From Luteimonas sp. MC1572 (GTDB lineage Bacteria > Pseudomonadota > Gammaproteobacteria > Xanthomonadales > Xanthomonadaceae), in contig NZ_CP067112.1 of the NCBI RefSeq assembly GCF_016615815.1, positions 744,001 through 808,000 of the forward strand: a stretch of 64,000 nucleotides of DNA, in the 5' to 3' direction. Shown piece by piece: positions 35,060 through 37,182 of the stretch. How positions within the stretch are numbered: position 1 is the first letter of the stretch; each line of letters begins with the position of its first letter. The translations under genes and the position numbers were made by a program. Below the pieces are notes generated by a model, which saw only the letters and a program-made list of their open reading frames with translations, made no database searches and was not told the DNA's origin.

Positions 35060-36202
35060 ATGACCACCGTCGGCATCCTCGGCGGCGGGCAGCTGGCGCG
35101 GATGATGGCGCTGGCCGGCGCGCCGCTGGGCCTGCGCTTTTCCGTGATGGACACCAGCGCCGACGCCTGCGCTGGGCAGTTCGCGCCGCTGGTGGTCGGC
35201 GACTACCGCGACCAGGCCGCGCTCGCGGAGTTCGCCGCGCGCATCGATGTCGCCACCTTCGATTTCGAGAACATTCCCGCAGCCTCGGCGCAGTGGCTGA
35301 GCGAGCGCGTGCCGATGTTCCCCAATCCGCGCGCGCTCGGCACCAGCCAGGACCGCTTGGCGGAAAAGACCCTGTTCCGCGCGCTGGACATCCCGGTGCC
35401 CGCCTTCGTGGCTGTCGCGACCCGCGACGAGCTTGACGCCGCCATCGCGACCGTCGGCGCGCCCTGCATCCTGAAGACCCGGCGCCTCGGCTATGACGGC
35501 AAGGGCCAGTACCGGATGCGCGCCGCCAGCGATGCCGACGCGGCCTGGCAGGTGCTCGGTGCGCAGGCGACCAGCGTGGGCCTGATCCTCGAGGCCTTCG
35601 TGCCGTTCGAACGCGAGCTCAGCGTGGTCGCCGTGCGCGGCCGCGACGGCACTTTCGCGACCTGGCCACTCACCGAGAACTGGCACGTCGACGGCGTGCT
35701 TTCGGCAAGCCTGGCGCCCGCGTCGGTAGCGCCGGCGATCGAGGCGTTGGCCGTCGCGCATGCCCGCGCACTGGCGGAAGCGCTCGACTACGTGGGTGTG
35801 TTCGCGCTGGAACTGTTCTGCCGCGACGGCGTGCTGCTGGCCAACGAGCTGGCGCCGCGTGTGCACAACTCCGGCCACTGGACCATCGAAGGCGCGGAGA
35901 CCTCGCAGTTCGCCAACCACCTGCGTGCCGTGCTCGGGCTGCCGCTCGGCGCGACCCGCGCGCTGGGGCAGGCCTGCATGCTCAACTGGGTCGGCGAGAT
36001 GCCGCCTTGCGAGGCCGTGCTGGCCGAAGCCGGCGGCCATTGGCACGACTACGGCAAGCAGGCACGCCCGGGGCGAAAGGTCGGGCATGCAACCCTGCGC
36101 TCCGATGACACGGAAGACCTCGCCCAGGCGCTCATCCGCGTAGGCGCGGCGCTCGGTCGCGAAACCCAGGTGGCGCCGGTGGTCGCGCGCCTCCTTACTT
36201 GA
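35060..36202 (+). CDS. purK: N5-carboxyaminoimidazole ribonucleotide synthase PurK
   Basis: A 380-residue ATP-grasp enzyme; start 35060 (MTTVGILGGGQLARMMALAG). It has the N-terminal nucleotide-like fold, the ATP-grasp segment ILKTRRLGYDGKGQYRM, and ELFCRDGVLLANELAPRVHNSGHWTIEGAETSQFANHLRAVLGLPLG, the most conserved PurK block. It carboxylates AIR with bicarbonate and ATP, upstream of PurE. The 3' end overlaps the convergent SOD-like gene by eight bases. Confidence 0.97.
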   Translation: MTTVGILGGGQLARMMALAGAPLGLRFSVMDTSADACAGQFAPLVVGDYRDQAALAEFAARIDVATFDFENIPAASAQWLSERVPMFPNPRALGTSQDRLAEKTLFRALDIPVPAFVAVATRDELDAAIATVGAPCILKTRRLGYDGKGQYRMRAASDADAAWQVLGAQATSVGLILEAFVPFERELSVVAVRGRDGTFATWPLTENWHVDGVLSASLAPASVAPAIEALAVAHARALAEALDYVGVFALELFCRDGVLLANELAPRVHNSGHWTIEGAETSQFANHLRAVLGLPLGATRALGQACMLNWVGEMPPCEAVLAEAGGHWHDYGKQARPGRKVGHATLRSDDTEDLAQALIRVGAALGRETQVAPVVARLLT

Positions 36203-36782
36203 GGTTCGACGCCGCGAAACCCCAATCCGCCACGTTCCAGAACGCTTCGATGTACTTGCCGCGGGCGTCGCGGTAGTCGAGGTAATAGGCGTGTTCCCAG
36301 AGGCTCAAGGCGAGCAGCGGGCGGTCGTCACCGGTGATCGGCGAGGCGGTGTTGGCAGTCTGCACCAGCGCCAGCTTGCCGTCCGGTCGCTGCACCAGCC
36401 ACAGCCAGCCCGAGCCGAATGTGGAAGTCGCAAGCGCTGCGAAGCGCTCGCGGAAGCGGGCCACGTCGCCGAAACGCAGTTGGATGGCGTCGGCCAGCGC
36501 GCCGCGCGGCTCGCCGCCGCCACCGGCCGCGGCCGGTTTCATGCAGCGCCACTGGAATGCGAGGTTCCAGGCCTGTGCGGCATGCTGTTGCAGACGGCCC
36601 TGCGCCCCGCGCACGATCTCCTCGAGCGTGGCTTCGGCCATGCCAGCCGCGGGTGCCAGCGAGTTCACCGCATCGACGTGCGCGCGGTGGTGGCGACCAT
36701 GGTGGTGGTCCAGCGTTTCGCCCGAGATATGCGGCTCGAGCGCGGTGCGGTCGAAGGGCAGGGCGGCGAGTTCGATGGGCAT
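36195..36782 (-). CDS. Fe/Mn superoxide dismutase homologue lacking two metal ligands (probable pseudoenzyme)
   Basis: A 195-residue protein that aligns end to end with SodB: PIELAALPFDRTALEPHIS at the start, FGSGWLWLVQRPDGKLALV in the middle and WEHAYYLDYRDARGKYIEAFWNV near the end. Compared with E. coli FeSOD numbering, His26 and His160 (WEHAYY) are kept, but Tyr34 is His (HHRAHV), ligand His73 is Leu (WNLAF in place of WNHTF) and ligand Asp156 is Ser (LSLWEH in place of VDVWEH). The codons were checked on the minus strand. With half the metal site gone, dismutase activity is unlikely; a structural, regulatory or altered metal role is possible. The reading frame is intact and the fold residues kept, so it is not simply decaying. 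Divergent from grxD. Confidence 0.85.
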   Translation of the reverse strand: MPIELAALPFDRTALEPHISGETLDHHHGRHHRAHVDAVNSLAPAAGMAEATLEEIVRGAQGRLQQHAAQAWNLAFQWRCMKPAAAGGGGEPRGALADAIQLRFGDVARFRERFAALATSTFGSGWLWLVQRPDGKLALVQTANTASPITGDDRPLLALSLWEHAYYLDYRDARGKYIEAFWNVADWGFAASNLK

Positions 36783-36787
36783 GGCCT

Positions 36788-36794
36788 TACAATA
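36788..36794. promoter_or_regulatory. Face-to-face -10 elements between the SOD homologue and grxD
   Basis: On the minus strand TATTGT (36794-36789) ends six bases before the SOD-homologue ATG at 36782, the spacing of a leaderless start. On the plus strand TACAAT (36788-36793) overlaps it almost fully and lies 62 bases before the grxD ATG. The same seven bases could therefore serve both directions, making the two genes compete or be switched together. No clear -35 is seen on either side. Confidence 0.4.
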
Positions 36795-36855
36795 CCGCGA
36801 TCACAGTCCCCCGCATGCGGGCCCGCGCGGCCTGCAGCGCATTGCCGGAGCCACC

Positions 36856-37182
36856 ATGGCGATCATTGAACGCATCCAGGCCGAAATCGACGGCCACCCC
36901 ATCGTGCTCTTCATGAAGGGCACCCCGCAGTTTCCGATGTGCGGGTTTTCCAGCCGCACGGTGGGCGCCCTGCGCGCAGCCGGTGCGGACATGGCGGCGC
37001 TGCACACGGTCAATGTGCTGGAAGAGCCGGAGATCCGCGCCAACCTGCCTCGCTTCTCCAACTGGCCGACCTTCCCGCAGCTGTTCATCCACGGCGAGCT
37101 GATCGGCGGCTGCGACATCACGCTCGAACTGCACGAGTCCGGCGAGCTGGCACGCATGGTCGCGGAAACGCAGAAGGCGTGA
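36856..37182 (+). CDS. grxD: Monothiol glutaredoxin (CGFS type)
   Basis: A 108-residue protein with the active-site CGFS at residues 29-32 (Cys29), preceded by LFMKGTPQFPM. Glutathione-binding positions are seen in NWPTFPQLFIHGELIGGCDI. CGFS glutaredoxins carry a glutathione-ligated 2Fe-2S cluster and serve iron-sulfur transfer and iron regulation. Its stop overlaps the GTG of the SDR gene by four bases (GTGA), so they are coupled. Divergent from the SOD homologue. Confidence 0.96.
   Translation: MAIIERIQAEIDGHPIVLFMKGTPQFPMCGFSSRTVGALRAAGADMAALHTVNVLEEPEIRANLPRFSNWPTFPQLFIHGELIGGCDITLELHESGELARMVAETQKA

Follow-up and report, generated by a model that had tools for sequence, protein, structure and literature searches.

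The window analysed here is a stretch of 64,000 nucleotides from Luteimonas sp. MC1572. It encodes a homologue of the iron superoxide dismutase SodB, whose gene meets the convergent purK in a tail-to-tail overlap of 8 bp (36195-36202) and has the glutaredoxin gene grxD as its divergent neighbour on the other side (Table 1). By descent, the protein is an Fe/Mn superoxide dismutase (SodFM): both Pfam SOD domains are present at full length and above cut-off (PF00081, 69.4 bits; PF02777, 117 bits), and it matches E. coli SodB (PDB 1isa) with 210 bits. Its score with the NCBIfam equivalog for superoxide dismutase [Fe] (NF007832) is 229.9 bits, below the cut-off of 348. Residues are numbered as in E. 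coli SodB, by alignment to 1isa and to the E. coli SodB sequence.

Active Fe/Mn-SODs are recognised by four metal ligands (His26, His73, Asp156 and His160) and by the gate residue Tyr34 together with Gln69. The window protein has Leu73 and Ser156 in the first set and His34, with Gln69 present, in the second. The original prediction had reported these three replacements in an intact frame, with His26, Gln69 and His160 kept, and reading back the codons, the frame and the start bears this out; His30, Trp122 and Glu159 are also kept. An AlphaFold2 model (66 aligned sequences; mean pLDDT 95.6, pTM 0.92), helical in its first half and mixed in its second, suggests compatibility with the SOD fold rather than proof of it, as its alignment holds many normal SODs.

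Table 1. Features of the sodB locus in the window. Residue numbers are those of E. coli SodB; counts refer to the 45 altered Luteimonas genes that were aligned.
Feature	Position	Strand	State or evidence
purK, convergent neighbour	35060..36202	plus	overlaps sodB 3' end
altered sodB (Fe-SOD homologue)	36195..36782	minus	195 aa, ATG start, frame intact
His160, metal ligand position, kept	36291..36293	minus	CAC; His in 45/45
ligand Asp156 to Ser	36303..36305	minus	AGC; Asp in 0/45
Tyr76 to Gln	36552..36554	minus	codon read-back
ligand His73 to Leu	36561..36563	minus	CTC; His in 0/45
Gln69, second sphere, kept	36573..36575	minus	CAG; Gln in 45/45
gate Tyr34 to His	36678..36680	minus	CAC; Tyr in 0/45
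His26, metal ligand position, kept	36702..36704	minus	CAC; His in 43/45
intergenic region common to sodB and divergent grxD	36783..36855		73 bp; sequence read
TATTGT (TACAAT on the plus strand), putative -10	36789-36794	minus	6 nt from sodB start
grxD, ordinary Grx4-family monothiol glutaredoxin, ancestral neighbour	36856..37182	plus	profile and loci comparison

Ligand loss across Luteimonas

We searched 52 Luteimonas genomes and found the gene, with an open frame, in 49. Scored at eight sites (26, 30, 34, 69, 73, 122, 156 and 160), it is canonical in two of them (L011, L018) and altered in the other 47. The alignment with SODs of related genomes proposed with the original prediction thus finds the same losses in the relatives, and this excludes sequencing error as the source of the substitutions. 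Among the matches listed, records titled Luteimonas comprise eight altered genes and one canonical one (L. cucumeris, L144), and the L. mephitis entries are canonical (P0049, P0050).

The original prediction read the gene as a pseudoenzyme with a retained function, and part of the survey counts against this reading: two genomes (G002, G043) have a Mn-type SOD and no full-length gene of the SodB kind, and two altered genes (L050, L051) are strongly eroded. These two were set aside as too eroded to align safely at the eight sites, leaving 45 altered genes. The frames of L050 and L051 are open, but both lack His160 and a large part of the C-terminal motif, and they may be genes in the course of being lost. 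In one further genome (G035, 470 contigs), the search found no match.

Among the 45 genes, position 73 is occupied by Asn (15), Thr (12), Leu (7), Glu (5), Asp (4), Gln (1) or Cys (1), and position 156 by Ser (25), Cys (19) or Asn (1). His26 is replaced by Gln in L009 and L010, and seven Trp are kept in all 45.

A second SOD, for which the original prediction had suggested a search, is present in the window's own genome (3.02 Mb, one contig): a canonical Mn-type gene with its ligands intact at C1:651915-652496, which is the only other Fe/Mn-SOD there. Cu/Zn-SOD gave two matches in this genome. All 47 altered Luteimonas genomes have a Mn-type match, and the ligands are intact in all 12 Luteimonas Mn-type genes read. 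At loci L053-L056 and L058, four genomes (G045, G029, G001, G009) have a further Mn-type SOD, and one (G032) has a short stretch resembling a fragment of one. The open frames around two distant SOD-like matches (L052, L057; 29-37% identity) run to about 400 codons; these matches read YEH where the WEH motif would stand and represent a different family member.

The neighbour-gene tree nests the canonical L018 with the altered L030 and L032 (support 99). The masked SodB tree unites the altered genes in a single clade at 91, and in it the grouping of L018 with L030 and L032 has a p-AU of 0.09. A single loss in Luteimonas is not rejected (p-AU 0.68). Since one loss fits, we do not claim several within the genus; our claim is limited to one ligand loss there, plus one or more in the Stenotrophomonas group.

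Altered SodB and the second SOD in the family

The family sample comprised 198 genomes, nine of them Luteimonas; three of the 189 others had no match, leaving 186. A single Fe/Mn-SOD is present in 133 of these, including three genomes (G076, G107, G190) whose second match, at E 1e-11 to 1e-13, was too weak to count. One of the 133 has the Mn-type gene only (G080, 87% complete) and two have an incomplete SodB that is intact where readable (G237, G189). In the remaining 130, SodB is canonical at all eight sites. A second strong match is present in 53 genomes, where SodB is altered in 27 and canonical in 26; that it stays canonical in 26 despite the second SOD counts against the pseudoenzyme reading.

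The 27 altered genomes span seven genus codes (g18, 8; g7, 8; g11, 7; g2, g19, g53 and g29, 1 each). The g7 pattern, Tyr34 to Leu with Gln69 to Glu, is shared by entries from X. albilineans and X. bonasiae. In E. coli Fe-SOD, the change of Gln69 to Glu stabilises Fe(II) and abolishes dismutation. The g18 pattern, His30 to Cys or Tyr and Tyr34 to Glu or Asp, is the one published for Xanthomonas citri. The Cys/Glu pattern is described as general in Xanthomonas in the available part of that report (PMC6322740), and the X. albilineans-type SodB with Leu34 and Glu69 (L097-L120 in g7; P0229, P0231, P0237, P0238) departs from it.

The neighbour-gene tree (115 rows) requires at least nine changes of the altered state and at least three of ligand loss. 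The association between the presence of a Mn-SOD and an altered SodB is not significant by independent pairs, with two contrasts on supported branches, which again counts against the pseudoenzyme reading. We thus do not present the Mn-SOD as a tested cause of the alteration: the direction fits, but the test corrected for kinship is not significant.

Selection on the altered gene

Compared with L004, its nearest relative (93% identity), the window gene has a dN of 0.037, a dS of 0.42 and a dN/dS of 0.09, the last being like the values of grxD (0.08) and purK (0.10) for the same pair. In a neutral simulation at dS 0.42 (70% GC, 500 runs), identity was 43% on average and 54% at most, against 93.3% observed, and the frame stayed free of stops in 6.6% of the runs. 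The low dN/dS and the simulation exclude a neutral pseudogene in the window lineage. Among the other pairs of the window's clade that were listed, dN/dS is 0.14-0.26 for sodB versus 0.02-0.15 for grxD; the faster evolution of sodB than of grxD, in this clade as elsewhere, counts against the pseudoenzyme reading.

NG86 estimates reach saturation between distant pairs (medians of 0.45 for altered and 0.27 for canonical genes), and we therefore used close pairs and maximum likelihood estimates of omega. Under the codon model, omega is 0.124 for altered Luteimonas sodB (45 genes), 0.096 for canonical sodB (45 genes drawn from 143), 0.065 for grxD (45) and 0.101 for purK (26). Among the altered Luteimonas clades, it is 0.105 in that of the window (8 genes), 0.080 (16) and 0.107 (12) in two others, and 0.180 in the most eroded one, clade D (7). 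This last value is a point against the pseudoenzyme reading, as is the slight excess of the altered genes over the canonical ones. Altered sodB is under real constraint, though this falls a little short of that on grxD and is at its lowest in the most eroded clade. Outside Luteimonas, omega is 0.095 in g18 (8), 0.186 in g7 (7) and 0.096 in the canonical genes of g29 (7).

The leader of sodB

We found no Shine-Dalgarno-like word before the window sodB (scored at -16 to -4, with AAGG among the accepted words). Such a word precedes sodB in all 26 sole-SOD loci, in 70 of the 71 canonical loci that were retrieved by name and in both canonical Luteimonas genes, against 7/45 altered Luteimonas genes and 0/8 in the window's clade. 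Canonical sodB of other two-SOD genera has it in 4/7 cases. Elsewhere, the counts are 0/8 in g18, 0/1 for L124, 0/3 in g2, g19 and g53 together, 3/8 in g11, 7/7 in the altered genes of g7 (L119 left out) and 0/7 in g29 with canonical sites. Several loci of the Stenotrophomonas group (L099, L102, L105, L110-L113) combine canonical sites with the lack of the word, as if translation had been lowered before the sites changed.

The word is present before grxD in the same Luteimonas loci (45/45) and in others (29/30), and before the Luteimonas Mn-SOD (7/7). The control with purK gave 2/24 and 5/20; because purK mostly has no such word, a gene that lacks it need not be silent. In shuffled leaders it occurs at a rate of 0.06-0.17 per gene. 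Fisher values for the loss are 1e-13 and below, ignoring kinship.

The distance from the motif ATTGTA to the ATG is 5-6 nt in all eight genes of the window's clade (L003-L010). It is 20-54 nt in 31 of the 37 other altered Luteimonas genes, with the motif not found in six, and 25-53 nt in 11 of 30 canonical genes, with the motif not found in 19. The leader has shrunk in the window's clade, which brings TATTGTA this close to the ATG. Such a short leader would suit a leaderless message that has base pairs in common with the grxD promoter.

A replacement set probably reached twice

One gene of the Stenotrophomonas group (L124, g29), whose kin include S. tumulicola, has Gln26, Cys34, Leu73, Gln76 and Asn156, and the Luteimonas gene L010 has Gln26, His34, Leu73, Gln76 and Asn156. 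The former is 65% identical to a gene of its own genus (L102) and 49% identical to L010. Because it groups with its own genus in the neighbour-gene tree and in a quick SodB tree (fork at 81), the set Gln26/Leu73/Gln76/Asn156 most likely arose twice, independently in the two genes. The change from buried charged ligands to neutral residues is as would be expected if the fold must stand free of metal.

Of the 120 proteins listed around L124, the ligands, the gate and Gln69 are all kept in 75; one or more ligands are missing from 29, and the other 16 are altered at Tyr34, His30 or Gln69 only. Single steps are also found there, i.e., Asp156 to Asn or Ser only, His73 to Leu only, and His26 to Asp only. 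An obligatory pairing of Asn156 with Gln26 was considered, as all 12 proteins with Asn156 in P0001-P0128 have Gln26, and rejected, since P0129-P0240 include proteins that combine Asn156 with His26 (eight) or Leu26 (two).

A probable pseudoenzyme and its alternatives

In this bacterium and in most of the relatives studied, some of the metal-holding parts of the protein are lost, yet selection preserves it, and SodB here thus probably does something other than remove superoxide. We favour, with moderate confidence, reading sodB as a vertically inherited, translationally down-shifted and catalytically dead pseudoenzyme that would be kept for a non-dismutase role. As in pseudoenzymes, conserved catalytic residues are gone (in Luteimonas, Tyr34, His73 and Asp156 from all 45 genes, while Gln69, His160 and the seven Trp stay in every one) and the coding sequence is kept by selection. 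The reading is further favoured by the low dN/dS and omega with the neutral simulation, the Mn-type SOD in the window's own genome and the Mn-type match in every altered genome of the genus, the loss of the Shine-Dalgarno word compared with sole-SOD loci and grxD, the canonical state of SodB in all single-SOD genomes scored, the independent replacement set of L124 and L010, and the confident model of an SOD fold. The original prediction of a pseudoenzyme with a retained function is in this sense upheld, through the genus-wide losses and the purifying selection.

The course of events may have been as follows. The Mn-type SOD, which is present, would supply cytosolic dismutation. The sodB ribosome-binding word was lost, presumably lowering the amount of protein made. 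Tyr34, His73 and Asp156 gave way to residues able to pack without metal, in an order that the sister genera suggest. Purifying selection kept the fold, together with the aromatic core, Gln69, His160 and, in most genes, His26, plausibly for a non-dismutase job, most likely as a scaffold, free of metal or binding it through two His, that contacts another molecule. Our best guess is a non-catalytic binding role.

The main rival is that the gene is on its way out, being redundant beside the MnSOD and eroding slowly under weak residual constraint with no positive function. We consider this rather unlikely. It would account for the mostly lost ribosome-binding word, the gene's absence from G002 and G043, the erosion of L050 and L051 and the higher omega of clade D. 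It would also fit the marginal role of SodB in S. maltophilia, where the available part of the report describes little effect of deleting a canonical sodB (PMC6479884), a point against the pseudoenzyme reading. Slow loss agrees poorly with a dN/dS in the window pair like that of purK and grxD, with open frames in 49 of 52 genomes, with omega of 0.080-0.107 in three altered clades, and with the rarity of stop-free frames under neutral drift at the divergence of that pair.

Less probable still is a re-tooled metalloprotein, with another metal, new ligands and other chemistry; binding of another metal was an alternative in the original prediction. The retention of His26 in 43 and of His160 in all 45 genes is in its favour, and so is the set His26/Asp-or-Glu73/Cys156/His160 found in nine genes (L030, L032, L043-L049), where Asp or Glu at position 73 comes with Cys156 in 9/9 cases (hypergeometric 1e-4, ignoring kinship). 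These nine genes fall in two groups, however, and are hence not independent; the window protein, with Leu73 and Ser156, is left with two of the four ligands, and L009 and L010 have Gln26. A new site made of His34 and His66 was rejected as not general, being found in 25/45 Luteimonas genes only. A re-tooled site is possible in the nine relatives, and less so in the window.

The original prediction also suggested iron or redox sensing with the divergent CGFS glutaredoxin, which we consider very unlikely. The two genes adjoin in 49/49 Luteimonas loci (in L011, the contig ends within grxD), but also in all 68 further SodB loci whose flanks were read, some of them canonical, so that the pairing is not specific to altered genes and predates the ligand loss. 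Since the arrangement is family-wide and inherited, adjacency gives the sensing idea no weight. The glutaredoxin itself is an ordinary member of the Grx4 family (TIGR00365, 134.1 bits, cut-off 117.1), and the window SodB has a single Cys. A cluster bound by SodB itself, as the original prediction had also considered, is unlikely if it is of the Fe-S type, as there are too few Cys, with none in 15/45 Luteimonas genes. Finally, a dismutase still active despite the substitutions is scarcely credible: the fold and two ligand positions remain, but the gate Tyr and half of the four first-shell ligands have been lost, and the four ligands are called universally conserved in the available part of a published paper (PMC10172142).

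More broadly, we tentatively suggest, as a possibility we rather doubt, that SodB is converted time and again within the Lysobacteraceae into a defined scaffold or signalling protein free of metal, with translation lowered first and the same set (Gln26, Leu73, Gln76, Asn156) then attained separately by Luteimonas and by the Stenotrophomonas group. If so, an old second function of SodB would have been kept and dismutation dropped.

Comparison with known systems

Our literature search of open-licence papers found no earlier report of ligand loss in these bacteria. The rule of universal ligands is broken by nearly the whole genus, in a protein that selection nevertheless maintains, and genes that carry the name superoxide dismutase in such bacteria may not encode enzymes. 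The sister genera show apparent earlier stages, i.e., canonical genes without the ribosome-binding word, the gate lost, one ligand lost and several lost. The suggested second, non-dismutase function of SodB becomes testable in proteins presumably unable to dismutate. Second-sphere tuning is treated in the accessible part of a further paper (PMC13008324).

Among the closest likenesses is Xac3 (XAC2677) of Xanthomonas citri, which is also a SodB-type protein of the same family beside a Mn-SOD, has lost the gate Tyr and has been proposed to be inactive or of unknown function. In the available part of that report, the Xanthomonas SodB is judged highly likely inactive with its ligands intact, through a change specific to Xanthomonas (PMC6322740). 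Xac3 differs in having all four ligands (with Cys for His30 and Glu for Tyr34), whereas the window protein has lost His73 and Asp156. In S. maltophilia, SodB is likewise made marginal by Mn-SODs, and the authors suggest unidentified other functions; unlike here, the ligands are reported there as conserved, as far as the available text goes (PMC6479884), while 29/120 listed related proteins of the Stenotrophomonas group have lost ligands. With canonical SodFM2 proteins such as E. coli SodB, the window protein shares the fold, the length, Gln69 and the core, but not two of the four ligands or the gate Tyr. The SOD fold is also used by PAP4 and PAP9 of the chloroplast RNA polymerase, which are parts of a larger machine and appear among the matches of the window SodB. 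The yeast mitoribosomal proteins mS42 and mS43, of SOD origin, are likewise parts of a larger machine. Unlike the window protein, PAP4/PAP9 and mS42/mS43 are eukaryotic and have known partners.
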